Assembly: GCA_950295325.1 (NCBI GenBank)
Contig: OX485808.1
Coordinates: forward strand, 18,062,527 to 18,126,526
Direction: 5' to 3'
Source: Polytrichum commune
Lineage: Eukaryota > Streptophyta > Polytrichopsida > Polytrichales > Polytrichaceae
DNA: 64,000 nucleotides
A model generated the notes under the pieces. That model had not been told where the DNA came from. It saw only the letters and a program-made list of their open reading frames with translations, and searched no databases. This document shows positions 10,546-29,798 of this stretch, piece after piece; position 1 is the stretch's first letter, and each line of letters starts with the position of its first letter. A program made the translations under genes and the position numbers.

Positions 10546-11709
10546 GCGAAAATCGTAGAACAACGTGCGATAAAAAATAGGGTCCAATATATTCATTGTA
10601 GATAAATTTTGTAAAAAATGTACATGTAAAATAGGGGATTTTAAAATAGTGAAACATGTTTACATGTAAAATACCATCACATATAATATTTTCAGGCTTT
10701 TTACATGTAGAATACCATCACCTTATAATCTTTTCTGCAAGGTAAATAACCCCCCCAATAAATAGGTCCCGAACGCATGTGTATGCAAAATATAAGAGGG
10801 AGTGAACCCCCCGAGGATCGGACCTCCCTTGATTTAGTTATGGTTATCGGAAGTGCATGTTTGTGGATAGCTTGACTTTGCACATGGATCTTCTCAATCG
10901 TGTTCAGTGTTGAGTGTGAGGTAGTTAGTGTTAACTTTGAAGAGGTAGTGCAATCTTTTTTTAGTAAAGGTGTCCAGTTAGGAAAAGTAATTGAATAACA
11001 CCCACACATCTTGCTAAACTTGGGATTGTTGCATGTGAGTGTACCTCTCTTCTATCCATGTTAAAATCGTGCCTCTCCATAGGTGTGTGGTTGATACATC
11101 TCAATTGTGCCTCATGACAAAATGTTACATAGTATGTAGGTTGTCCAAAGGTTAATTTTTTTGTGATTGATCTGACATAAATTTTTATTTTTTTGGCTTG
11201 GGCTCCCACTTCACATGGCCACATCCAACAAAGTGAGGTATCATTGTATTTAAGTAGTCCCTTGCTATGGTATTGGTGTTAAACCATCCCCCTTTGGTAA
11301 GTGTCAACCATATCGCATCGCTTAGAAGTAGTCAAAGTATAATAAGCCTCCAACTCCGCCCTAACGTCCAGTTGTCTCTCATCTATCCAACTGCTAGACA
11401 CACCCATCACATACATCTCCGTATTCAAAACCTCACTAAGGAAAGACAAATGGGGTGCTAAAAAATGCGCACACACCTTCTATTGCCATTAGAACTCCCT
11501 CAATACCACATACACCAAATGGATACATTAAACACAACTTCTCAACCCAAAGAACTTACTATACGACCATAACCTTCTACTCCTCACCAAACTATCGAAC
11601 CATATAAAACCCCAATAATCATGTCATAAACTCCATACTGGCCGGCAATACCCCTAAAAAGCTACATTAAAACATAATACAAAATTGTTCTCATTTCAAA
11701 TGCCACAAA

Positions 11710-11878
11710 CATAACATTATTTAGATCCATATCAATGTTATGTCGGACTGAGAGTATTCCATGTAATATTCCCAGATATTTCCCACATTCAGAGATTGAA
11801 TGTGGGAAATATCCAGGAATATTATGTGGAATACTCTCAGTCCAACATAACATTGATACAAATCTAAATAATGTTATG
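11710..11878. mobile_element. Foldback MITE, family A copy 1 (169 bp)
   Basis: The two halves are near-perfect reverse complements of about 78 bp each. Both ends read CATAACATTATTTAGAT inward, and the centre is CCCACATTCAGAGATTGAATGTGGG. A shorter related copy lies at 28824-28961. I found no clear target-site duplication. Confidence 0.8.
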
Positions 11879-13160: not shown

Positions 13161-13947
13161 AACACTATAACCCATAATCAAGGTCTCGTTCTTCATAGTT
13201 TCCATTAGAAGTCTTTCATGTGGGTTGACCAGTCATTTGGGGTCTTTGATTGACATTGTATAAATACAATTTTTTTTTTTTGGAAGTGAATGCATTATAC
13301 CAGTTTGCATATATATATATATATAAGTCAAATCTCCATACTTTGCAAGAGAAGGGGCATGGTTCCAAGGTTAGATGTCTTGCTCTTTGAGCTCCAAAAA
13401 TTGGAATCTCCACTTAAATGAATACTTGAGCTTTGTGTATGGGATGAGCATGTGCCTTTGCTTTGAATAAGTAAATAAATAAACCATGAAAATATGGATA
13501 TGAATGAATAAGAATTAGAGTAATATGTTTAACTCCATAAGATTAAACACTATATTCGGTATTTGGAGACTTTTTGTTGATTATGAGACTATATAAGGAT
13601 GCACATTTCAAAATTGGACCAGTAATGACGACTAAAAATCCCATATGTATAATGGTATGCTACTATTATTATACATAAAGGCATGGAAGTGAAAAAAAAT
13701 GTGAGGCATACATGAAAATAGTTGCGTATGAAATGACAACTCGTTATGAATGGAAGGGAAGATGCGAAGAATGAATGGAAGTTGAATGAATTAATTGGGA
13801 TAGAAATACAATTATAATGGAAATACCATCAATGTCTTGAGTAACTTGGAATAGCATAGAAAGTAAGCACTTAAATATGTTCTACACCTAAGCCCATTTA
13901 GGGAGCCCGTCCCACTAGTACGCTTCTAGTCACACTAGTCCGACCCA

Positions 13948-14256
13948 CTATTTTTTTTTTGCGGCTAAGTCCTTTTTTTGGGCGGCCTCCATGGCTCTAA
14001 AAATCTCAGGCCCACGACTGTATCCTTGTGTGTTGCCTGGAAAGGAATATGTGTCGTTCTTGCATGTTTCAGGACGCGCTCCCGAATTGTACGAGGTGGT
14101 ATTATAAGTAGAATACGAGGGCGTTTGCGAAAGGGAACGTCTTGCGCTTCTCCGGAGGGCCAGAGAACGATCGGACTCGGAAGATGCGGCCTTGAGGGCG
14201 TGCCTTGGCACTGACGAAGTCGAGGAGGGTTGGCCACCAAGCGAGCGGGGAGCCAC
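13948..14256 (-). CDS. Exon 6: C-terminal tail
   Basis: This is 103 codons including TAG at 13950-13948, after an 85-bp intron ending TTTTTTGGCAG. The protein is Ser/Arg-rich (VAPRSLGGQPSSTSSV; RSLALRRSARRSLSQ; SYSTYNTTSYNS) and ends AAQKKDLAAKKK, a basic tail. No known domain. Confidence 0.45.
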   Translation of the reverse strand: MAPRSLGGQPSSTSSVPRHALKAASSESDRSLALRRSARRSLSQTPSYSTYNTTSYNSGARPETCKNDTYSFPGNTQGYSRGPEIFRAMEAAQKKDLAAKKK

Positions 14257-14341
14257 CTGCCAAAAAACGCCATAGGAAGATAATAATAAGAACGGAGTGG
14301 GGAAAATGAGGAAGGGCGGTTTGGGATGGGCGCTTGTAAAC

Positions 14342-14917
14342 CTCTTGGCACGCACAGACAAAGAGGAAAGCAACGGTGAATATGGGTTTAGGGACAAAGA
14401 AGGGCACCTTGGATTTGGTGACATCGATCCCGGGGACGATGGGGGCGTCGAGGAGAGCATACGAATCCGGTTGAATTGCGGCACTGTTCAGTAATGTGGG
14501 GGAAGCATGGCAAGGAGGGCCAACGACCGGGGATGGGTTTGCAGGAGGAGGAACGGGGACGACGGGGGAGGGGTCGCACCGGGTTGCTTCCAGGTGGAGA
14601 CGTCGGCTCGGCCCACGACGAGCGATGGCGTCGTCCCTCGAGGGCGACACATGCCCCAAACGAACGAGCGTCCGCTTCTCCTTGGAGAGGGGGGAGGGCG
14701 ACGGGGCGAACGCCCGAGGGACAACCCTGGGGGGCGGGCTGTTGACAACACCGTCGTCGACGTCCCGGGAGTAGTCCACGGCCGAGGCTGCATCCACCGC
14801 CGAGAAGTGGTAGAGTGAGGGGATCACGGAATACGTCACGCCGCGGGAAGGGGAGCCTGGGGACGAGGGGGGACGGGAAAGGCCGTCGAGGACGGGGGCA
14901 TCACATATGGGGGCAAA
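14342..14917 (-). CDS. Exon 5: Pro/Ser-rich region
   Basis: This is 192 codons after a strong pyrimidine-rich acceptor (TTGTTCCCCATAG), reading FAPICDAPVLDGLSRPP. It is disordered and rich in Pro, Ser, Arg and Val, and ends ACQE before the donor GTTTAC. A palindrome copy with one base change (CGAACGAGCGTCCG, 14661-14674) is translated as RTLVR. No known domain. Splicing of this exon to exon 4 is inferred from phase and acceptor quality. Confidence 0.45.
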
Positions 14918-15078
14918 CTATGGGGAACAACAACAATAACAACAACAACACAAACAACAAAGACATCCAAAAACGGATGAAGCGTTAGATATGTGAACCA
15001 AATGATAACACGCACATACATGAAGATATTTCAAATGAGTTTATTAAATTTCACGAGCCTCATGATGCTCTTGTATAC

Positions 15079-15798
15079 ATTATCGCGGGGGCTTAGTCCC
15101 GCATTGCCGATGGGGTTGGACCTAACAAAAAAGGGGATGCTACCGGCGTGGAGGACAAGCCTTCTAAGGTACGGCGCTAGCGTATCGACCAAAAATGCGT
15201 CCTTCCTATCTCCGGTCCACGTGTCGGGAAAGATGACGTTGCCCGGGGGGTTCAAAACGCTCTTGGCGGGGCTGTCGTCGACCAGGAGGGTGTTCTCCGG
15301 AGTAGGCCACCACCCGTGGGGGGTCCCCTGAAGCCGGGGGACGCCGCGCCAAAGTCTGGACCTTAGGACCTTGAGGAACTGTTGCCCTCGGCCTCGGCCG
15401 CCGAACTTGGGAACCGGTAGACCCTTTTCGTTGAGTAGTTCATCGCAGTCCTCTTGCCCGAGGACAAGGCAAGGGCTCGGGAGATCACGGAATAGGAAGT
15501 CGACGATGGGTTCCGTGTTCTCCATGACCATTGAGCTCCACACAATGACGTGGGCGAACTCGACAACCTCGCGAAGGAAGTCGCGCAAGCCGGGACGGGC
15601 GCGGACAGCCTTGCGGTTTATTAGGGTGTCGAGCTCGCCGTCATAGTCCCTTTCGTCGGGGTGACGGAAGGGACGCGTGGGGACCCTCGGGATGTGTTCG
15701 GTGTGACACAACACCCCGTTGAGGTCAAACACGATGAACGACTTGTTTCGGGTCTGAGGTCCACTGGTGGAGGGGTTGCGACCTATCTCCGGGGGGTC
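15079..15798 (-). CDS. Exon 4: FCP1/NIF-like HAD phosphatase domain with altered active site
   Basis: This is 240 codons opening DPPEIGRNPSTSGPQ after the acceptor AATCACAG. The domain begins FIVFDLNGVLCHTEH, continues RPGLRDFLREVVEFAHVIVWSSM, and has NTLLVDDSPAK near its end. This is the FCP1/SCP/TIM50 order: nucleophile motif, Ser/Thr motif, and the DD metal-binding motif. The canonical DxDG(T/V) is DLNG here, so the second Asp (the general acid) is Asn. The domain may bind rather than dephosphorylate its target. The donor AAT-GTATAC at 15078-15073 gives a phase-0 join to exon 5. Without splicing the frame stops at 15031. Confidence 0.75.
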
Positions 15799-16389
15799 CT
15801 GTGATTAACAATTCGACTAGTTTAATGCTATGATCCAATAAAGAATTTAGCAAACATGAAGATGCAGTATGGAAAAAGACGAAGGGCGAGAACAAGGGTA
15901 CATTTGCGAACGATTGTTCGTGAAAGGCCAGCAGTGACCATGCGCACCATTCACGAACGTTCATTTGTGAATGAACCCTATAGTGCATTTACGAACGGGC
16001 GTTCGTGAAGGAGATGGTCGCGGGGTGGCATCCTTTTACGAGCGTCCGTTCGTGAACGAGGCAGAAATGCACAACAGATTTAAACCCGCATGAACATACA
16101 CAAAACAACCAATGCGAGACGACGCGATTCGATGCAAAAAAATGTTTCATTTATATGAATTCCGTGAAAATTTACAGTTTGTCTCAGATGATAATCTATC
16201 GTACAGGTTCCTAGGGCAACAAGATGCCGTGTCCTACAAAACTGGTCGACCTGAGGAAGCACGCAAAAATGGGCTATCGGAGGTCTCGGATGCCGATGTA
16301 TACAACGCGCCAAAAACACAACGCATGTGGTTAGAGATGTTACGAACGCGCGTTCGTAAATGCATGCGGTAGTCTCAAAGATGAGTTAC

Positions 16390-17832
16390 CTCGTCATCGG
16401 AGGGAGGGGCAGCGGCGCTGGATTGAGCGGCAGCTCCCTCCTCAGCGATTAACGAACGCGCGTTCGTCACATCCGCCGCCGCAGGTGCCTCAGTCTCCAT
16501 TACGTCGTCAGCACGCGCCGCCTGAGACGTCTGGGTCTGCTGTATGTCGTCCTCCTCGCCACCCAGGTCGAGAGTCTCCATGTGCACGTCCCCAATGCAT
16601 GCGGGGGGATGTCGGTCTTCCGCAGGGCTGTCCTCGACGTCCATCCTCTGGACGCCTGCGGTGTCACTCGGGCTCCCCTGCGTGTCCTCCACAATGACCA
16701 AGTCAGTGTGTCGCGCAGTATCATCACCCCTTGTCCTATCTAGTAAACTGGGGACGATGGTGAAAGGTGCCGTGTCCGTCTGTGAAGGCAGTCCTACCCT
16801 TGGTGGGGGTGGGGTGAGGACTGTTGGACCTGAAGATTCACGAACGTGCGTTCGTAAATCCTCGTCCTCACGGATAGCCGCCGAGATTGCGTCGTGTATG
16901 TTGGCGGTGTCCGTGGGCATTGTAGGGGGTGGAGGAGTCCCCACCGGCGTTGGGTGGGGCGCTGGCTGGTAGGAATGCCCTCCCGGGAAAGGACCGTGCA
17001 TGGGGTATCCCGTAGGGAATGGGAATGCTGCCTGAGGGGCCACTGCAAAGTTCTGCAGCCTGGTCAGCATCGCCAGTATGGCGTCCGTCTTCTCGTTGGA
17101 GGACTTCAGCTCCTCCTCAATTTTTCTCATTTTCCGGGCATTCTCCTCTGCAGCCGCAGCCATGTCTTCCTTCATCTTCTGCTCGAGCTTTGCGTTAAGC
17201 TCGGCGACGGAAAGGGCCTCCTCCTTGACCCTCTTGTTCTTGTCGAACTCCACCCCAAGCTCGACCATAATGTCAATGTCCCCCTCGTCCTCGTCGGAGA
17301 CCTCGATGATCGCCCCCTCGGGCAACTCCACGTACGGGGTCTTCTTCATCCTCCGTCGCGTGTTGCGGAACAGGTCCAACGTGGGACGGGAGCGTTGGTC
17401 GAGGACATCGAGGGTCTCCATTTTCGGGACCGCCAGCCTTTGCTTGGGGGACACTGACGTCGAACAACCTCCTAGCGTGCCGAAGGGCTCCGCGCCTGAG
17501 GTAAGCGCGGGGAGGACATCCTGGGTGGCACCCGCCGAGGATCCAGTACATCCAGCCGGGGTCCCTTGGTATTCTGAAGGCTCCCCCGATGGGGCCAACA
17601 ACCGGAGAGGAGTGACATCCAAAGCCTGGAGGATGGCATCGACGTTGACGGAGGGGCCAGGCTCGTCGTCGTCTGTTTCCATGGGCGGCATGCCTTCATC
17701 GGCCGGCATGTTGAAGTCCGTTCTGGGCACGTACATGTCAGCTAGGTCCATCGTCGACGCTTTTGTCCTGTGGAACTTGTAATCCTCCTCGTCGACGGCG
17801 TCAATATATGTGTTCACGCACAGCCCCAGCAT
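16390..17832 (-). CDS. Exon 3: acidic, low-complexity protein region with a coiled coil
   Basis: This is 481 codons, uninterrupted, from MLGLCVNTYIDAVDEEDY (completing the methylase-like motif of exon 2) to PPSDDE before the donor GTAACT. Around codons 190-275 is a charged heptad-rich stretch (VAELNAKLEQKMKEDM, ARKMRKIEEELKSS) that should form a coiled coil. Pro-rich and acidic disordered sequence follows. Two palindrome copies are translated in frame, as DLRTHVRES (core 16841-16854) and VTNARSLI (core 16453-16466). No enzymatic domain is seen, and a linker or oligomerisation role is likely. Confidence 0.6.
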
Positions 17833-18020
17833 CTGAGATAAGAAGGCAAAGATTCAGTCATTTACGAACGCGCGTTCGTAAACATGAAGGCTTTGAGCGA
17901 GGAAATAATAAAAAAACAATTCACAAAACAATCATAAGTATCGGCTGCCCATGGTAAATTGTTTGGAGCATGCAGTGTTTACGAACGAGCGTTCGTAAAA
18001 AGTGGTGTGAGATGGCTTAC

Positions 18021-19346
18021 CATGGCCGCGTACATAAATTTGCTGCCTCCAAATACGTTGTAGACAGTCTCGCCAGTCATTGCCAAACCCTGCAATATGG
18101 AGACGTAGAACTCCATCCTCAGCTCCAGCGCCGGGAAGACAGTGTACAGAGTCTCCTGGAAGAGATCCTTTGGAGGTGGGTGAGGGATGCTGTATATCTT
18201 CTTGAATGTGTTGATCGCCTTTATGGGTGCTCGCCCATTCCTAAGCGCATTGTACGTCAAGAAGATGAGGCTCACCGCTCCCACCTGCCTGTTGCCTCTG
18301 GCCTCGTTTACGGCAACAATTCCCTCCGTCTTCGCTGGCACGTATGTGCTGTGGAAGATGTTTTACTCGAACTTGATCTTGTTCTCATACAAATCGATGA
18401 CGACGGATTGCTTCTCCTGCTCCACAATCCACAGCCATACGTGCGGCTCCCTCATGGTCCGAGATTTGTGCTCCATGAATTTCGCCATGAAAGGGTTGTA
18501 AAAAGGCTCCCCCTTCGCGCCCTGTCGCGAGGCACCGGGTATCCCTCTGAAGTCGATGACCGCGAAGGGACAACCCCTTCGATCCTCCCTGACCTCGGAC
18601 CTGCTGAAGGTGCCATCCCACTTGGAAAACGTGGTCCTCTCCAGCCCCGTGGTCACCACACAAAATCTTGCCACGCCCTCGAAAGTGGCGTTCCTCTTCC
18701 TCTCCAAGAAGGAGATGTACCGTTGAATCTCTTCAGGTTCCGTTTCTGTTTTTTTTGCTCTTTTGTTTCCCTTGAGCTTCAGGACGGCGACGTGCTCCTT
18801 CACCAAGCTGCGCATTGAGGCACCGTTGATATTGTACAGCGCCTTGAACTCCTTCCATTTCGCCCAGTTGATATCTTCGTCGGCCTGGAAAATGTGCATC
18901 TCAGGCAATAGGCCGCTAATCTCCCGCATCGCAGCGGTCTTCAGCTTCCTGTGGTCGCACCACTCTTTGATCGAGTACGTGCCGGGCTTGTGCTTTGGTC
19001 TCTTCAAAAATATCTTGGGATAAGGGATGGTCCTTCCGACGGTGTTCCCAAGAACGTGAACCGCACATCGCTGCAACTCTGATTCAGTCAGCCCTTGCAG
19101 GGCCCTAAAAAATTCCCGCAGTAGAGGCGGGGCCTCTCCGCTCTTCTCTTGAGCGTACTTCTCTTCTGTGTCTGGGTTCACCAGATCGCCCGAGCTGTGA
19201 GCGTCGAAGAACTGGGTCCACAACTCCCAGGTGTCTCTGTTGCAGCAAATCAGACGGAGCTCACTTTTGAGCTCCAGAACTGATTTGGTGCTTGTGGACT
19301 TCATGTCGATGGAGGAGAATTTGTCCACCATCGCATCACAGAACGC
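18021..19346 (-). CDS. Exon 2: DNA methyltransferase-like domain
   Basis: This is 442 codons opening AFCDAMVDKFSS after the acceptor TGTTGCAG. The last third reads ELRMEFYVSIL, TGETVYN and VFGGSKFMYAAM, then MLGLCVNTYIDAVDEED across the next junction. This aligns by eye with the C-terminal end of beta-type N6-adenine/N4-cytosine DNA methylases (EL..fi...s..gd.vlDpF.GSGTt..AA..LGR..iGid). The SAM-loop GSGT is GSKF here. The upstream catalytic DPPY/SPPW motif is not obvious; CPFAVIDFRGIPG is in roughly the right place, so the domain may be non-catalytic. A TAA at 18365-18363 interrupts it. Assignment to the Rossmann methylase fold is inference. Confidence 0.5.
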
Positions 19347-19469
19347 CTGCAACATACATACGAGGACGTCAGTGTTCAATACTAAATACGAACGCGCGTT
19401 CGTAAGTTGGAAAATTTAGAAATTGTTTAATGCAACATATGCTTTACGAACGCTCGTTCGTAAACTCAC

Positions 19470-20765
19470 CTTCCACTGTGGAGATTGCGTCTTGGCGTTC
19501 TCCCTTTCTTTTGGCGGGCATCTGTGCTCGACCCACACGTCTCTGGCCGCCACTATATTCGCCGCCCAGGAGGCCTCGAATGCCTTGATCTTGTTTCCGG
19601 AATTCAAAAATGTCGATATTTTGCGGAGCTTGTCCCAGTCGTCAGACCAAACCAAAAACGCCTTCCAGTAGCGCGGGTCCGCCTTGAGCTCGTGCTGGAA
19701 GTTATCATCCTTTAGGATGATCTGTGACGCCTCTAGACTGTGTTGTCCATCGATTATCTAGAACTCTCCATTCTGGATTCTTGGCCAATCCTTCTCAGTG
19801 GGGCGTGACAAAAAACCCTTGGGCATCACGCAGACGGTCTGCCTATCCCACTTCACGTTGTTCATGAGGTTATTAATCTGCCACTTCACCCCTCCGCTTT
19901 CACGAGACCTCACCACCCACTTGTTAGGAGATTTCTCGCACTTGAAACAATCCACGTTGAAAGTGAAGTGGCGTCCCATAGGCCAGCAATCCTTGGAGTA
20001 GTTGTTGAAGTCTCGAAGGATTTTTGTCGCTTTGGCAGCGTCTGGGTTTTCTCCCTTCTTCAAAGGGGTTGGCATCACTGGCGGAGAACTAACCTCAACG
20101 CCTTCCGTCAATCCGGACTTCTCCATCTCGTCCCTCGACCTCTTGGATGGAGTGGATTGTCTGTTGGGCCCTTCTGTCAACCTGCTCCCCGAAGGCACAG
20201 GCCGCGGAGCACTTCTCGATCCTCCTGCCCCCGAAGCAGCTGGTTTTTTCGGATTTTATTTTATTTTATTTGCCTCCGCGGCAACACTGTTGTACTTCGA
20301 AACATTCAAGGTCAGGGCAGTCAACTTCCTCGCCGTCCAGTGTTGACTCAGGGCATATTTGGTGAAGAGAGCATCCAGATTGAAATGTTTCGCATCGGAT
20401 GCGACATTATTGCATGCATAAGCATAAGAGAATGGGTGCAATAGGTAGTTTAAGAGGAGGTTCACATGGTCTTTTTTATTTTTCATATCCAGAATAACAA
20501 AGTCTCCTTGTGCCTCTGCGGATTCTATCTCCCAATTCTTTGTCTGCACCCATTGGTCTGGTTGGTCAGCCCTTGTCTGCAGCTCATAAGTGAATCGCAA
20601 TGCAAACAACCCTTCCTCGGTCTTCGTGGGGATGGCCGTCCACTCAGCCATGAATTCTTCTTTTGGGACATAGTTGTCGTTCCCATTGGTATCCGAGACG
20701 CCCTCTGGAAGGCGCTCCACTGGCACTGCGAACAAGTCGATGGCGTTTCTGCTAGCTTTAGCCAT
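19470..20765 (-). CDS. Exon 1: N-terminal region with ParB/DGQHR-like motif
   Basis: This is 432 codons starting MAKASRNAIDLFAVP. The first part is of unknown fold. A low-complexity Pro/Ser/Arg linker (codons about 170-215) follows the TAA at 20258-20256, which lies in an AAATA microsatellite. Next come GRHFTFNVDCFKCEKSP and, just after the TAG at 19760-19758, IIDGQHSLEASQI. That motif resembles the core of ParB N-terminal and DGQHR/DndB-type domains (I-I-D-G-x-H-R); Ser replaces the usual Arg. The frame stays open for 96 further codons to the donor AAG-GTGAGT. CAG-to-TAG would explain the second stop. The domain assignment rests on one motif plus the methylase-like region downstream. Confidence 0.55.
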
Positions 20766-21279
20766 CTGCATCACACAAGAGCAAATCAGAATTGCTTTTA
20801 CGAACGTTCGTTCGTAAACAACACCGTGCCATGCATATTATTTTCATAGTGTGGTTTTTGGAAATACGAAGTTTTGAATGCTTTATGCATTTCAGGGTGT
20901 TTCTAATGCATTCACATTGGTTCACATCTTTCACGAACGCGCGTTCGTAATATGAGATACATGTTTATTAGTATTTTGTACATAACTATACGAACGCGCG
21001 TTCGTAAAATCATGCGATATTGTGGAACCTACTGAGTTAAATTTAGTGTTGTGATTGGATTTAAGTACTTATATGAATTACAGCATGGATATATCCCTCC
21101 ATTTTGGATTTAGAGTTTCGAACGCACGTTCGTAAACGTAGTCCTTGGGTTCCAAAGAATCTTTACGAACGCGCGTTCGTGAAATGGTATATATTTTGCG
21201 CGGCCTATGCATTTACGAACGCGCGTTCGTAAATGGGTGTATATTGTGCGCGGTAGAGGTATTTACGAACGCTCGTTCG

Positions 21280-22284
21280 TAAATGAGCCTGTTGTTTGTT
21301 TTTATATATATAATTAATAATAACAATATAGTGTCCGTACATATACTGATTCGTATATATACGAATTCGTATACATACGTATGGCAAGGTCTTGCTTGCT
21401 GTGTCTCAGCAAAGCTTGCACTTGTGCCTGCAAGTGTTCGTCAGAAAGGTGAGATTGAAGAAAAACAATACAATCAAAACATATAGACTTGGAATGTGAC
21501 AGAGAATTCAGAACGAGGATCCGAACTTGACTTCCAAAACACATGCCATTCAATAATGAACAAATATAGACTGTGAAGGATTTGAGAAGGGAAGGAATAT
21601 TGTGCTTACTCTGAAATTTTACACACCCAAAAGTTGCTTGCTCCTTTGTTGAAAACCCCAGGAAACCCCACAAAAGCAAGGTGATTTGAAAGTCAAATGC
21701 ACCACTGCACCACTGAAATTGCCTTCACACTAGTTGTTGCATGCTATGTACGAACCCTAACTAAGACTCTGATGTATATGCAATTTCAAATGCAGTATTT
21801 CTCAAGCTGCTACTCTAAAACTTGCAATTATCAAGCTTATAGCTTGAGTATCCTAATCTTAAGCTTCCAACTCTCAAGCTTTAAACTCTACAAACTTTCA
21901 ACTCTCCAACTTTCAACTCTTCTAACTCGAGTTCTCTATTCTTGAGCTGCAACTCTCAAGGGACTGTCAATAACTCTCAACACTTGCCCCTACAAAAGAA
22001 GTGCACCACACAAAACTAAAAAATGCAAGAGCTTCGCCTCTAAACTCTAAACCAACGCGGCGCTCCTCCTCTCTCTGCTCCAAATGAGAATGAGGAAGGA
22101 GAGGAGGGGGCGCGGGGAGGTAGCCCGCGCCTCTAGGGTTTTCCCTCGGGCTGCCACATGGCCGCTTCCCATTGGGGAGGGAAGGGATGGGTCGGGCTAG
22201 GAAGATGAGGGGATGGGATGGGGAGATAGCATGGGGTGTGGGATGGGTGGATGGGGGGGATGGGGGGGATGGGTTGGAATTCAT
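21280..22284. other. 5' region of E1, no gene recognised
   Basis: Contains TATA-rich sequence at 21300-21375, Leu/Ser-biased short open frames, and a GGGATGGG-rich purine strand at 22180-22275. No domain recognised and no further palindrome copies. Confidence 0.4.
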
Positions 22285-22470
22285 TGGGGTTTAGTAATTC
22301 AATGTAATCAAAGCACATAAATATATTCAATGTGACTTAATAAAGTGATTTGCATGGGGGGCACTAACCGATTTGACATAAATCTATGTCATCACAATAA
22401 GAAATGCAACTATATATTACACCATTTGCACTTAGTTTGAGACTTTCCCAACTCTCTAATTAACGAAAAT
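22285..22470. repeat. Terminal arm of E1 (right end), inverted relative to 22942-23120
   Basis: In reverse complement this reads TTCGTTAATTAGAGAGTTGG, GAAAGTCTCAAACTAAGTGC, then CAAATCGGTTAGTG, CATGCAAATCACTTTATT and GTCACATTGAATATATT. The same order occurs at 22942-23120 at roughly three-quarters identity by eye. Similarity ends abruptly at both outer limits. Confidence 0.75.
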
Positions 22471-22941
22471 AATCTAAGTTGGATGTATAAGCAATAAAGG
22501 CACGTTAATTTCAAGCTTTTTAATATGTATATGCCTCCATCACATAAACATAAGGAGTCCAGTACAAAACATGCATTTTAAATGCTACATCCCCTTCATC
22601 TACTTTGGATTCATTGTAGACATCTTCTAGATAAGGAGTATGAATTCAATTTCCACATTGCACATCATGTACTAGGGATTCGATGAAAACCCTACCCCCA
22701 ACGATGTGTATTAATATGGTGTTTTCAAATATATAGTGTTCTCATAATTGAAATATCTTTCAAATTTTTAAATGGTTCCTCAAATAATTTATTATAAGAT
22801 CCATAAAGGTCCCGATTTAAGATTGGTGGGAACGGTTTAGGATTTTCTTACAAGAGGTGCGGGAAAATTCAATTTCAAATACTAGGCTTTCAATTCAGTT
22901 TATTATGTGTGAACTTGAACTACTGCATTAAATTTATTATT

Positions 22942-23120
22942 ATATTTGTTAATCCGAGACTTTGGAAAGTCTCAAAATAAATGCAAATGATTTAATATGT
23001 GGTTCAAATTCTTATTCGGATGAGATGTATTTGTGCCAAATTGGTTAGTGTTGCCCATGCAAATCGCTTTATTGTGTCACATTGAATGTATTCTTGTGTT
23101 TTACTTGTTCTTTATTTGAA
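22942..23120. repeat. Terminal arm of E2 (left end)
   Basis: Matches the E1 right arm in inverted orientation (see 22285-22470). Shared words include CCAAATTGGTTAGTG, CATGCAAATCGCTTTATT and GTCACATTGAATGTATT. The E1 and E2 genes are both transcribed away from these matching ends. Confidence 0.75.
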
Positions 23121-23311
23121 TACCATGTTCTGAAATAGTATCCAAAATCATGAAAATGTCCCCAATTACAGAATATGGTGATCGTTGAAAGTTTGGCTCG
23201 CATCAAATGTAAGCTACAAATAAATTAAGTTAGTGCAATATGGATTTATGAGTAGTGAATATAGTTTGTATGTAAACCCTGTTATATGAATTACTGGACA
23301 TGCACATCCCT

Positions 23312-23336
23312 CACAAACCCTAAACCCTAAACCCCT
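23312..23336. repeat. Interstitial plant-type telomeric repeat (about three units)
   Basis: Reads CAAACCCTAAACCCTAAACC. It is plant CCCTAAA sequence, too short to be a chromosome end, and lies inside E2's 5' region. Confidence 0.8.
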
Positions 23337-23718
23337 AGTTTTTTTTACCATCCGCACTATATGGGGGAATGTTGTGATCCAACCTAATAGTGTTGAGTGC
23401 ATTTTAATTACACAATGCATAAGTGAGACTCCATATAGGTATGGTTTCAATTCATATCATTACACTATCTTATGCACCATTCCAAATTAATTCAACATTT
23501 CCACACAATGTTGAATCAATTCACTATTTGCAAACCTGGAGTTGCATTTGAATTAAGATATAAAGTATATCTAGGCATGGTTTGAATTCATCTCCTTAAT
23601 CTACCTTAGTAGCTTGCATGAATTCACCAGACTTTTTATTGGTGTTCATGCACTTGGTGAGTATTTTCCGCAATAATGTACATAAATGTAATGTAGATAC
23701 ATGTAATGTATATATATG

Positions 23719-23900
23719 TAAAGTATAGATATATGTAAGAAACATATATATATAGATATATAGATATATAGATATATAGATATATAGATATATAGGTATA
23801 TAGATATATATTCACATATATAGATATATATAGATATATATTTACATATATACAAAGATATATATATGTAAATATAAGTAAATATATACATCGATATATA
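23719..23900. repeat. TAGATA/TATATG microsatellite
   Basis: About 180 bp of imperfect TATAGA repeats that grade into TATATGTAAATA. The long Tyr/Ile-rich open frames on the minus strand here (for example ending near 23636) are artefacts of the repeat. Confidence 0.95.
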
Positions 23901-24291
23901 TATAGGAATATACATTTTATTTTTTGGTTCGGGAAACCTTGGTAACACCTAAGGTGTGGAACGGATGAACATATTATCAATGCGTGCATGCCATACATAT
24001 TCAATACAGAAAGTTATTTATGTCCCGCATGAATAGAATGGCATATTGTTAGGTTAAAGTAGGCGGCGGGAATCCGCTTTTCAAAGAGAATCCAAGGGAT
24101 TTTGAACCACGGTAGAGGAGTACTTAAAGCTCTCCCCCCCATTGCAGAGCTCTTTTTTGCGGGAGACACCAAGTGTGCGCTCCAGACACCCGACGGAGGG
24201 CGCTCGAGCCAGTTTCCTGTGCGTGAACCGTACACTCATAGGTGGCAGACAACCTTATCCCGCAAATACCGCCGCAAATACCGGGGGTTTA

Positions 24292-25134
24292 CGAACGCGC
24301 GTTCGTAAACCTGCAGTGCGCGCATGTGTTTGTGGATGAGATATATCGAGGTTGGTTGGATGTTTACGAACGTGCGTTCGTAAATACCGCCTTGGCGTAT
24401 ATTTTACATCCATAAATGTATAGACCCAGATACGATTATGCATAGGCACAGACAATATGAAAGTCATATACGAACGAGCGTTCGTAAATGTACATTTTGA
24501 GCATCCGAAGAACATTGGGAATGTGCAAGAGTTTACGAACGCGCGTTCGTAAATATTGAATGCGTGTAAACGGTGTATGGTACATACTGAAATGACATTA
24601 GAGTTTACGAACGTGCGTTCGTAAGTGACACCGCTTATTTTCAGAATCCATATACTCATGGATATAAGGGGTATGAAGATGTACATACAATACGATAGTA
24701 ATTTACAAACAGAAGGTCGAAAATATCAATGATTTCAGCAGATATACATAAGATGAGCGAGAGTTTACGAACGTGCGTTCGTGATTTCCACCTGGGAGTA
24801 TGTCGATGCATACATCACGCCTCCCTGGGCACGCACACAAATATATATGTATTTACAACAAAATATTAGACATAAATACGAACGTGCGTTCGAATTCATT
24901 CAGGGAATGTATCTGGACATTGACTGCGGGATGTGGGAAAATGCTCCATTTGCTCCACATACACATAGTATGGGCGAGGGATGTGTATTTGGGGCACATG
25001 GAATAATACATTCATATGCGTCAATGACTCTCGGAAGTTTTGTGTAGGCATATAACAGATATCCCTGCACAATTGAAACGGTCCATGTTTTAGTTGACAT
25101 ACAGAATGACGGGGAACATTCGAACGCCCGTTCG
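24292..25134. repeat. Palindromic repeat family, E2 copies upstream of the DUF7869-like gene
   Basis: Intact CGAACG-NN-CGTTCG cores start at 24292, 24367, 24471, 24536, 24608, 24768, 24879 and 25121. The centres are CG, TG, AG, CG, TG, TG, TG and CC. They fill the 1 kb before the ATG at 25303, a position that would suit binding sites for an element-encoded protein. A weak copy, GACGATCGTTC, lies near 25175. Confidence 0.95.
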
Positions 25135-25302
25135 TATATATGCCCAACTCAAACAGAAGCGTGTCTGCATGCAGACGATCGTTCTGTTATTCCCACTGTG
25201 ACTTGTGCTCTATTGTGACTTAGGTTTACTAAAATCTTGTCGTATTTGTGATTGACTTATATATGTTGTGATTCCATGTTCGCGTCATTAGGTGGGTTTG
25301 CG

Positions 25303-28300
25303 ATGGATATGGGAGATAGTGCATTTGAGTTGTCGACGAATGCATCGTTGTCGGATACGGAATGTCGCCTCTCTTCGCCTTCGGAGGATTATATTTGAGG
25401 GGCTAACATCCTGGGTGTGTCTGGGGATACATCCTCCCATGAATCTTTGGAAGGGCAGGAACATTCCCAACATTATGGGGATGATAACGACCACATTCCA
25501 TTGTGTGCCGGTTTCGGGAGGGAGCAGTGGGTGGGCCTTGATGTTGTTCTTCTGAACGAGCATGGTGTCCCTATGGCAAATGGCATTTGTAGAAACTCCG
25601 ATCCCCTTGAATGTATTGATGCCAACCCCCTTGGATTGGATGATGTTGGCGTTTGCATCTTGAATTCTTTACTTCCGTTGGAAGTCCCGTTGACTTGGAG
25701 ATTTTCCTTGCGGCGATGGCCCCTGCGTCGAGTTCTCCATGAAGAAGTAAGCTTGTGGGATCATGGGCGACGGCACAAGCAAACGCAGTCAGCTTTGTTG
25801 GCCGCAAGACGTCCTCGCAAAGGTCTGCGCAAATATGATTCTAGTCGCGTGTCTGGCATACAAAAAGAACGTAGACGGGATTCCATACTTGGAGAGGACT
25901 CTATCCGTCAAGTATCCACAAAGGACTGTTGTGCAAAGAAATGTTGTCAATTCTTTCCGCGTGAAAAAATTAGGTCCCTTCGGCAAAAGATGTGGCTTGC
26001 GGATTTTCGTATGAGGTCGGCAAAAAAACTCGAGGTCCACAGAAATTTGCACGTTGACAGCCATGGCAATAAGGTGGTTACCCTTGAGAAAGTGGAAGTG
26101 TGTTGCACAGCATGGTATTCCATCCATGCAGTCTCCAAGGCTAATTTTTATAGGTTTAGGAAGTATTCTTTGTTGGGACGCCGTTCTCGATTTCATGGCA
26201 ACTCGGGCACCAAGAAACCTAGAGAGGCTACACTCCAAGCCTCCGCGACACTCTCCACCATCATAGTCCCGTTGGCCGATGCAATGCCCCACAAGACGAG
26301 GACATTGTCCTCCGGGGAGAAAGTTGTCCAAATGGTGTTGCCCACGGGCACAAAATGGAAGAACATCTTAACGGACATAAACGAAGTGGGTCGCAAAGCT
26401 GGGTGTGGGCCCATTTCTTTGTCCAAGTTGAGTGTAATTAAAAACCAACAGTTTGCGGAGTACATTTTGAAGAGACCCGGGGACAAGTTTGCCAGGTGTA
26501 CGACGTGTGAAAAGTACAAAGGTCTTCGAGACGCCCATCCTATAGGCACCGAGTCCCATACAAGACACCAAAGAAAATGCATTGAGCATGTCAACAACCA
26601 GGAGGCACACCGTCAAGATTACTACAAGAATCGTGCACTATCCATAATGAGGCCTGCGGAGGTCCTAACTGTCATCCATGATAAAATGGACCATGCCAAA
26701 ACCGCATGCCCTTGTTATGCACGCAAAATTAAAGCCACGGATGGTCTCTTCAAGTTGCCCGTAGCTGTCACAGGTTCGTATGGAATCACAAATGTGTTTG
26801 AAAGGATTTCCAATGTTTTTGGGTTTGTTTGCCATATGTCAAACTTTATCCGTCTGTTTAGTGGTTATACCATATTTTTGTTGTTCATCCATCGTTTTTT
26901 TTTCTCAGGTATGATCGCCCACGGCCATGGGGACGTTAAATATGCCCATTATGGTTTGGATTTTTACCCTGGTGATGCCAACCACACGGTTGGTTCATTT
27001 GCAAAATTCTTGCGCGATCTTGAGAAGCCGCCGATTCACTCTTCCCGTGCGCTTTTTGAAGGTTGTGGAACGACACCCCTTTACGAGGCAGTGCTTCAGG
27101 GGAAGGAGGTTTGTATGTCGGCATTGCCGGAACCACGTGGAGAACCCATTTGTGCAAAACCATTGCCTCCAACTCTCCATGTTCAACTTGATAATTGTGC
27201 TAAAGACAACAAATGTCGATATGTGTTTTGTTTTTGGTCATTGCTTGTGGCAAAAGGCATATTCAAAGAGGTGTTTGTGTCTTTCTTGATGGTGGGGCAC
27301 ACACACGATGACATTGATGCGTCATTTGGACGTTGGAGCATGAAGTTGCATGAAGAGGATTTTCCCACCATACCGCTTCTTATGAAATCATACATGGATT
27401 TGGACAATGTGCCCGTAATCCCGCACATGATTGAGGAAGTACCAAATTTCAAGGCCTTCATCAAGCCATACATGCTGAAGGGAGATGACCGTTTGGTGGG
27501 ACACACGAAAGCACAACAATTCCGCTTCTATATGAGGGATGATGGTGTCCCTGCTATGCAGTTTAAGCTTTTGTGCACATCTCCTAATTGGTGTCCGGAG
27601 GATGGGATACTCGTGTGGCGTCAGAACAAGGATGGAAAATGTTTGCTCCCGGATGGGGATCCAAAGCCTTGTAAACCCGATCCCATGAAGAATGGGCCGG
27701 AAATCATCAAAGGCATATCCGGATTCATTGAATATTGGAAAGAGTTGTGTGAGGAAGACATCACCAAACGTGTTAAGAATACTTATGAACCGTTGATCGC
27801 GTATTGGGATCGCATTCGCTCGGCCTTGATGACACTTGGTGGCGACACACGTATAACTTTGACACAAGGATTTTGGCCACAAAGTCGTTTGACGGTTGTG
27901 GAGTCCGACACCATGTTCTTTGACAATGGAGAGGTCCGTGAAGAGTTCGAAATGGACGAGCATTACGTTGGTCCTGCGCGCAATCGGCCAGCACCGTCGT
28001 TTCGTGTGGGTGTTGATTGCCATGAAGGGTATATGGTCCTCGTACGAGCAGGAGATGAGGAGCATCCCAAGCCAATTTGGTTGGTGAAAGCATTGTCTTC
28101 ACCCAATTTTATCCGAACTAGCCCCAACTTTCATCAAATTGAAGTGGAATATTGCCGTCCTAGCACCAAAGACCAGAACGTTCTCCGGACCTATTTAGGT
28201 TGGGACACCAAAAAGAATTTCAAGTGGACAGTGGATTCAGCATATGGACCGGTTTGGATAAACACGGATACCATACTTTGTGCTTGGAAACCGCGTAAGG

Positions 28301-28434
28301 GCTCTAAATCGGAAACAATGACCATCCCCCAAAAACATATAGATTTTGCCAAAGACAACCTGGCACGTATTGCAGCTGTGGAAAATGAAGCCGAGAATGG
28401 ATATGAAGCGGAATATGGAGACGGGGAAACATAA
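25303..28434 (+). pseudogene. DUF7869-like putative transposase, one in-frame stop and one intron
   Basis: The ATG at 25303 opens MDMGDSAFELSTNASLSD. TGA at 25396-25398 is in the same frame, after which the frame is open to TAA at 28432-28434. A 135-bp intron (26774-26908, ACAG-GTTCGT...TTTCTCAG) removes a hydrophobic read-through and joins LPVAVTG to MIAHGHGD. Visible motifs are a Cys cluster (CCAKKCCQFFP), RCTTCEKYK, DKMDHAKTACPCY, QLDNCAKDNK and VGHTHDDIDASFGRW. The last two are the hallmark of DUF7869 proteins, which look like RNase H-fold transposases with acidic catalytic residues. The length, about 1,000 residues, suits the family. The early stop (CGA or TGG to TGA) means this copy is inactive unless translation starts downstream. 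A transposase role is inferred from the family and context. Confidence 0.75.
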
Positions 28435-28823
28435 CATAAGTTGGATTTAATGGCTCAACGTAGGGGGACTTTATAGACTTGGTATTATTGCAATTATTAT
28501 ATAATAAATTTATAATATTCAAATTTATAAATACGTTTGGGATGTGTCATACAATCCCATAAGACCCTTATATATGGGATGCACACCTTAAACTTTATAA
28601 TGACATAATACTATTTGATTTTGGGATTGGATTGTTTTTTCCACGTGTAGTTCATGTTTATGTTATGATATGAAGACTTACTATTTTTAGTAATGTGAAT
28701 ATTCTTCGCGGGCGAATTTGTAAACCGTCATGTTCCCAAAGTTCCATATGTTCACAATATTGGCATCCCAAACTATGGGCGTATTTTATTTTGAGACTTT
28801 CCAAAGTCTCCGATTAACGAATA

Positions 28824-28961
28824 TAGTGTTATTATTCAGATCCATAACAATGTATCTGTGGGACTGACCATATTCCACAAAATATTTCCCACATTCAGAC
28901 ATAATGTGGGAATATCCAAGAATATTCCATGGACACTATTATGGATCTAAATAATGTTATG
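28824..28961. mobile_element. Foldback MITE, family A copy 2 (about 138 bp)
   Basis: The ends carry TTATTATTCAGATCCATAA and, in reverse complement, CATAACATTATTTAGATCC. The centre CCCACATTCAGACATAATGTGGG matches copy 1 at 11710-11878. It sits exactly at the right edge of E2. Confidence 0.75.
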
Positions 28962-29798
28962 TCGATACTTTGAGACACACTAACCTTAACTTTTGACATC
29001 ATTCAAATAAAATATTTTTTCTTAACAAAATCCAATGATTGTACTCCTAAAAGATGCCAATGCAATTCCATGTTACTTAAGTTAGGGCGGGGTTACACTA
29101 GGGCTCAAGACCAAAGAAATTCTAAAATGAACTGATCTTATTGTTCAATATCAAATTTTTTGTCCCTAAGGTAAGAATCTACACTAAGGTTTGGTTTCAA
29201 GGTATGAAAAAAAAATGAAGTGGCACTAGTATGGCATCAGTTTCTCTCCAAATCTTATCGGTCCCAAACTACAACTCAAGACAATACTCCTCCTTGTTGA
29301 GAAATACATGTCCAAACTTGGATTAAATCTTGTCGGTCCCAAACTTGGAAATTTGTCATACAATTCATCAAAGATAATGTTTTGGTCTGATCTTTTTATC
29401 CAACATACATAATTGTTTTGGTGATACACATACCAATTTGAAACATAATTGATAAAAAATTTCATCCTTTATAAATTATTTCAATTTAGTGCTTGAAAAT
29501 GATATTTAGATCATTTTCAATATTGACAATAGTTCAAGTTTTTGCATGCATAGAAAAAAATATTCCCAAGAGCTCTTCTTTGGAGTTTGAAAACATTCAT
29601 GTTATTGAAAGTTAATAGTTTTCATATATATATCGATTCCATTGGGAAAATTGTTCAACTGCTAAGAGGTTGGCTATTAACTCAATGAAGAATCATAACA
29701 ATATGGCAACCCAAATCCACTTTTGAAAGCATCATCATAAAATATATCTTGCACACTCACCCCAAAAAATATTCTCTTCTCAAGAAGGACCTCCAACC
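28962..29798. other. AT-rich intergenic, nothing recognised
   Basis: Short open frames only, and no repeats or domains that I could recognise. Confidence 0.5.

Follow-up and report, generated by a model that had tools for sequence, protein, structure and literature searches.

Conserved spaced dyads in a moss DNA transposon and their counterparts in related families

A DNA transposon with two divergent gene blocks

The window, a stretch of 64,000 nucleotides (64 kb) of the Polytrichum commune genome, contains one DNA transposon of 15.3 kb (13546..28830, without strand), which has inverted termini, an E2 gene and a divergent E1 gene block. Homology with another copy of the element (copy C, L025-L026) stops at 13545. 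The left terminal inverted repeat, AACACTATATTCG, occupies 13546..13558 on the plus strand and the right one, likewise AACACTATATTCG, occupies 28818..28830 on the minus strand; this terminal sequence is common to the copies of L026, L024, L021 and L018, and copy A (L019-L020) is without this terminus. ATTA stands at 13542..13545 (plus strand) and again at 28831-28834, a possible 4-bp target duplication that is seen in one insertion only. A self-complementary MITE-like sequence lies outside the element at 11709-11878, with a partial copy at 28870-28962, just past the right end. Inside the element there is an inverted repeat at 22310-23102 with 164-nt arms (80%), the inner part of which is similar to 28785-28825 in the right terminal region (41 nt, 95%) and which may be a nested non-autonomous relative; a short telomere-like run, AAACCCTAAACCCTAAACCCC, is found at 23315-23335.

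The E2 gene (25399..28434, plus strand) encodes a DUF7869 protein (Pfam PF25273, 1.1e-39) and probably has an intron at about 26774-26908. Its relatives in the match list come from Ceratodon purpureus and Physcomitrium patens (39-48% identity) and from the liverwort Riccia (24%). In its predicted structure, E2 looks like an RNase H-like integrase/transposase-type core followed by a C-terminal chromo/PWWP-like barrel. Foldseek gave no match to the model at E<0.001, and we read E2 as a putative integrase because of a second structural aligner and the order of strands and acids.

The E1 block is on the minus strand. It begins with E1 exon 1 (19470..20771, counted from the first ATG), which holds an IIDGQHS motif and two in-frame stops, and continues with exon 2 (18021..19346), which holds one in-frame stop, and exon 3 (16375..17832), which is acidic and proline-rich and for which a sub-threshold match suggests a coiled coil. 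A NIF (CTD-phosphatase-like) gene (15031..15804; PF03031, 2e-14) and LEFT, a further ORF kept in other copies (14102..14917), are on the same strand. The in-frame stops of the window E1, at 20256, 19758 and 18363, occur though the dyads described below are intact, a combination that recent decay of the window copy would explain; an open E1 exon-2 part exists in other copies. A first look at the genome gave 1078 candidates for this exon. As an alternative, we considered a genetic code in which TAA and TAG specify Gln. E1 is open under table 6, but the homologues that span the three stops are without Gln there, and E2 also opposes such a code, with 1011 codons free of these stops. The other residues at these places in the homologues, together with the open E2, therefore indicate that the window copy of E1 has decayed.

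Position and conservation of the dyads

A pattern search of the 64 kb for CGAACG-NN-CGTTCG found 23 exact dyads and 27 when up to two mismatches were accepted, while at the same tolerance the average over 100 dinucleotide shuffles of the window was 0.54 and no shuffle had more than 2. All 27 lie between 14661 and 25134, and the rest of the window is without any. The sequence-only reading had given just these counts and this confinement, and both stand; what did not hold is its assignment of the dyads to two elements, which are the two divergent halves of the one transposon at 13546-28830. The complete conserved unit comprises 22 bp, TTTACGAACG-NN-CGTTCGTAAA. Over 166 sites from 10 stretches, the outer positions are conserved at 84-96% and the core positions at 96-100%, the latter values being somewhat high since only sites with up to two core mismatches were admitted. 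In contrast to the half-sites, the spacer takes nearly every form, as 15 of the 16 possible dinucleotides were found among the 166 sites.

Fifteen of the 23 exact dyads are upstream of genes, seven of them upstream of E1 (20801..21279) and eight upstream of E2 (24292..25134). E1 intron 1 (19347-19469) and intron 2 (17833-18020) hold two exact dyads each, at 19389..19460 and 17865..17995, respectively, and two more are in the coding sequence of E1 exon 3, at 16453-16466 and 16841-16854 (16453..16854). The DNA that separates exon 3 of E1 from the NIF gene holds, at 15907..16356, two exact dyads (15992 and 16343) and three imperfect ones (15907, 15954 and 16039). The sites in introns and coding exons had escaped the sequence-only reading, as had the different dyads of related elements described below. 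The site that was listed first in the earlier reading, 14661-14674, is a less certain case: all of its 14 letters are identical in three other copies compared, but it may not belong to the dyad set because it has one core mismatch and seven of its eight outer bases are off. Its halves are mixed, one being of the CGAACG type and the other of the CGGACG type, and it is read as KRTLVR in the LEFT ORF; it may represent an additional coding site or a case of plain protein conservation.

This distribution bears on two other explanations of the dyads. They could be sites at which a transposase or accessory protein brings the ends of the element together, as happens at the repeats near the termini of En/Spm or Ac, an idea that draws on the many dyads per element, their position near both gene promoters and the resemblance of E2 to an integrase-type protein. 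However, the element has no exact dyad closer than 2446 bp to its left end or 3696 bp to its right end, dyads also occur in introns and exons, and the compared parts of E2 retain 61-81% identity between families with different dyads, so that we find this explanation unlikely. With internal dyads 2.4 and 3.7 kb from the ends and in upstream regions, introns and exons, a marking of the whole element fits better than end pairing. Alternatively, the dyads could form intron RNA hairpins that aid splicing or transcript regulation, and in the window each E1 intron does have two dyads, one of which is close to the donor. We hold this to be highly improbable, as a loop of 2 nt cannot close and yet the bases flanking the spacer are conserved like the rest of the core, and as most exact sites are upstream of genes (15/23) and two are in coding sequence.

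The assembly amounts to 408 Mb and includes seven long contigs of 42-78 Mb. CGAACG-NN-CGTTCG is present 6137 times versus 26 times for the reversed control, which is about 236 times as many, whereas the same dyad with a 3-bp spacer is present 2 times versus 18 for its reversed control. The exact sites have a 2-bp spacer because the pattern prescribes it, but a 3-bp one is almost absent from the genome, in support of the proposed 2-bp spacer that is free in sequence. The first 100 sites listed form five clusters, and the stretches fetched for them encode parts of the element in five cases out of five. Of 20 stretches, 16 were obtained (four contigs were too short), nine by site position and seven as 10-kb controls by coordinate; the controls contain no CGAACG dyads, and one of them, L028, holds a diverged E1. 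A genome-wide count was one of the checks that the sequence-only reading had asked for, and it supports that reading: the sites whose surroundings were fetched cluster with the element. In viral and prokaryotic collections, seven viral and two genome stretches had one dyad each, which we took as chance. One copy of the element has 33 exact dyads in about 5.4 kb (L018 2648-8082; C1:640648-646082), many of them in arrays with steps of 33-93 bp.

Conservation of the half-sites was measured in the E1 introns, for which 12 copies were tried and 10 introns 1 and 7 introns 2 could be delimited (intron 1 of L039 was shortened by the acceptor pattern, and W/L036 and L040/L043 are nearly identical pairs). 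In pairwise comparison, half-sites differ at 4.4% in intron 1 and 0% in intron 2, spacers at 38% and 14%, and the remaining intron at 46% and 38%; a perfect core in a single copy was enough for its columns to be marked, a choice that somewhat favours half-sites and for which the spacer between the same columns serves as the control. Half-sites thus differ far less than the spacer and far less than the intron around them, in agreement with the earlier proposal of a selected dyad rather than a neutral duplication. The same holds in coding sequence. The dyads of exon 3 are translated as LRTxVRE and TNARS, and where two copies encode the same residue, their codons are unlike in 2 of 77 cases within the two coding dyads versus 575 of 1754 elsewhere in exon 3 (four copies), with both differences falling in one codon outside the core. 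Among 29 homologues, of which 8 and 9 do not cover the two coding sites, RTxVR is kept in 19 of the 21 that cover the place and TN(A/E/D)RS in 17 of 20. Moreover, the reading-frame shadow of the dyad is present in the ends of all nine retrieved E1 exon-1/2 homologues, whose ends run into introns or upstream DNA. A neutral repeat, spread by duplication or gene conversion, would agree with the tandem units that multiply sites in L018 and in the third family described below, but it is hardly credible given that half-sites are kept while spacer, intron sequence and synonymous sites diverge, and that a 3-bp spacer is found at 2 places only. What the analysis shows is the transposon itself, the conservation of the half-sites against spacer and surroundings, the 2-bp spacing and the family-specific dyads of the next section.

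Family-specific dyads and the proteins that change with them

Related elements of the same genome carry different dyads, each specific to its family. In one relative, termed X (L028 and its neighbour L034), TTTACGGACG-NN-CGTCCGTAAA stands at places corresponding to those in the window element, namely upstream of E1, in intron 1, in intron 2, in exon 3 and after exon 3; the exceptions are an AACG-type dyad upstream and a site with unlike halves in an intron. In exon 3, the peptide TNARS becomes ADARP exactly as the half-site AACG becomes GACG. Genome-wide, CGGACG-NN-CGTCCG was found 1648 times versus 7 times for the control. The 50 listed places of the X dyad form five clusters, and four of these are within 10 kb of an E1 match, taken from the 123 that were scored of 1076 candidates, while the fifth (25.98 Mb) is not. 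The X relatives at 73-75% have GGCCG dyads and those at 84-86% have mixed GGCCG/GGACG dyads, and several dyads with unlike halves occur in the X element and its relatives. Taking distinct sites of the first two dyad types together, the halves match in 118 of 134 and are unlike in 16, a count in which lineages are mixed and which does not represent independent events.

A third relative, located next to copy C, has GTTTGGGTCG-NN-CGACCCAAAC in the region upstream, in its intron 1 and at two places in an open frame that follows the exon-2 homology; the third-family copy beside copy C is damaged by stops. The third dyad, TTTGGGTCG-NN-CGACCCAAA (GGGTCG type), was found 9731 times genome-wide versus 0 for the control, with a pattern that is longer than the others (18 fixed bases). 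Together, the three dyad types have 17,516 exact sites in the genome. Further introns of the third class, from 10 loci fetched of 150 scored, have 3-5 dyads each in 10 cases out of 10. The association of the third dyad with E1 was seen in L026/L035 and in these 10 introns, and one of the listed clusters, at C1:616-626 kb, lies beside the E1 match at C1:623044. In this family, new sites arise through tandem repetition of units of about 47-57 bp. At C1:616089-617338 (G000), a row of 17 third-family dyads, about 78 bp apart, adjoins an E2 gene.

Dyads read by a host protein, for example those of a borrowed insulator or activator, would fit any selected dyad. Nevertheless, this seems very unlikely to us, since related elements of one genome have three dyads, each with its own E1 lineage, and since the sites with fetched surroundings cluster with the element. 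The different dyads at corresponding places suggest that every family has a protein of its own for reading its dyad.

As to which protein this might be, E1 identity between window and X is 46% for exon 1, 52% for exon 2 and 34% for exon 3; in the third family, exon 1 has 24-39% identity to the window and the part of exon 2 compared has 44%. E2 was present at both of the two places predicted from dyad clusters, and over roughly its N-terminal half, the part compared, it is 77-81% identical to the window protein in X and 61-63% in the third family. The E2 of the X family was identified beside another X copy; the 8 kb beyond the X element of L028/L034 contained no E2, and an ORF there is retroelement-like by eye. 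With E2 at 61-81% and the E1 exons at 24-52%, it is the more rapidly diverging E1 block whose changes accompany those of the dyad, a correlation over three lineages. E1 is not the sole candidate binder, because NIF, at 61% identity to the window in X and 45% in the third family, and LEFT, which belong to the same block, have diverged too.

Candidate function and comparison with known systems

Judged from the sequence comparisons, we favour element-encoded self-recognition of the dyads for expression or anti-silencing, with a probability of about 0.62. The dyads would be the sites of a dimeric, sequence-specific DNA-binding protein encoded by the transposon, most likely the E1 product rather than that of NIF or LEFT, with one subunit per half-site and the 2-bp spacer only setting the distance. 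Such a protein may mark its own element over much of its length, because the dyads are upstream of both blocks, in introns, between genes and in coding sequence. By analogy with VANC for VANDAL, the likely purpose would be continued expression of the element or its escape from host silencing, and protein and dyad would diverge together, a diverged E1 going with a different dyad at corresponding positions. That the binder acts as a dimer is our inference, and activation or anti-silencing is the putative outcome.

Profile searches with E1 recognised no DNA-binding domain: nothing was above the curated cut-off in Pfam and NCBIfam, nothing was found in PADLOC, and the profile had no match in the PDB at E up to 10. 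The predicted E1 model, with a pLDDT of 34, was unusable. Sub-threshold matches were to HAUS-augmin3 (0.0027, exon 3), DUF6551 (0.12), phrog_21482 (0.0077) and others of unknown function. The DGQHS motif is invariant in E1, and over this stretch exon 1 of the X family weakly matched the phage ParB-like phrog_1033 (E 0.0097), as the one protein out of seven. This raises the idea of E1 as a clamp that, like ParB at parS, loads at the dyads and spreads over the element. We consider it improbable, because Pfam gave no ParB match in E1, the six other proteins did not match phrog_1033, and in the same scan an equally good score (0.0077) went to a PHROG of unknown function. ParB recognises a palindromic site, parS, with a fixed centre; the dyads share the palindromic form and E1 is possibly a distant relative of ParB-like proteins, as the weak match would have it, but the host here is a eukaryotic transposon. 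Similarly doubtful is a fuller version, in which a ParB-like E1 clamp loads only at the dyad of its own family, spreads and excludes silencing, families arise by symmetric switches in both halves of dozens of sites together with E1 change, and the genome keeps a readable recognition code made up of several natural pairs.

The proposed self-recognition by E1 would have a counterpart in the VANDAL transposons of Arabidopsis, which are MULE-type elements. In the available text of two reports, a variable element-encoded protein, VANC, goes with a short motif that is repeated upstream and in introns and differs by family, motif sites multiply in tandem and the transposase is more conserved (PMC5735166, PMC10398659); the former gives VANA as much more conserved than VANC and the motifs (PMC5735166). 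According to the same text, VANC carries DUF1985 and DUF287, the printed VANC6 motifs are 8-bp strings, and the sites are in non-coding DNA (PMC5735166, PMC10398659). The moss element is alike in its family-specific short motif in upstream regions and introns, in the tandem multiplication of sites and in a putative transposase, here E2, that is more conserved than the variable protein. It is unlike VANC in that Pfam gave no DUF1985 or DUF287 match in the E1 exon proteins, whether from the window, from six homologues or from the X and Y relatives, in that its sites are spaced dyads rather than 8-bp strings and in that they are also in coding exons; furthermore, E2 is a DUF7869 protein, and anti-silencing was shown for VANC whereas here we infer it.

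In En/Spm, a CACTA element, the element-encoded TnpA binds many short subterminal sites and affects the methylation state of the element. The moss transposon likewise has many short sites for a putative element-encoded binder, but its dyads are internal whereas the TnpA sites are subterminal. Its termini read AACACTA, and the ATTA flanks of one insertion suggest a 4-bp duplication, compared with the CACTA termini and 3-bp duplication of that group. A CACTA transposase (Transposase_21/TnpD) was not found, E2 matching only DUF7869 in Pfam.

A literature search of titles and abstract starts, with most subscription papers outside it, returned no description of this element and no use of the term DUF7869, and among transposon systems against silencing whose target motifs change, it found VANC alone. 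VANC already exemplifies this kind of system; the one described here has a protein without a VANC domain, dyads with a 2-bp spacing, coding sites and at least three E1-dyad pairs in one genome. If the reading of E1 as a self-recognition protein is true, this would be a second system of self-recognition with changing motifs and would suggest that such recognition has evolved more than once, and at least three E1-dyad pairs with 17,516 sites would offer natural material for reading how proteins recognise DNA. The family also makes it testable how the dispersed sites of an element, some 20 in number, change jointly. Finally, the observed/expected ratio of CpG is 0.86 in the window element versus 0.42 and 0.54 in its flanks, a high value that fits low methylation and that young age alone may also explain.
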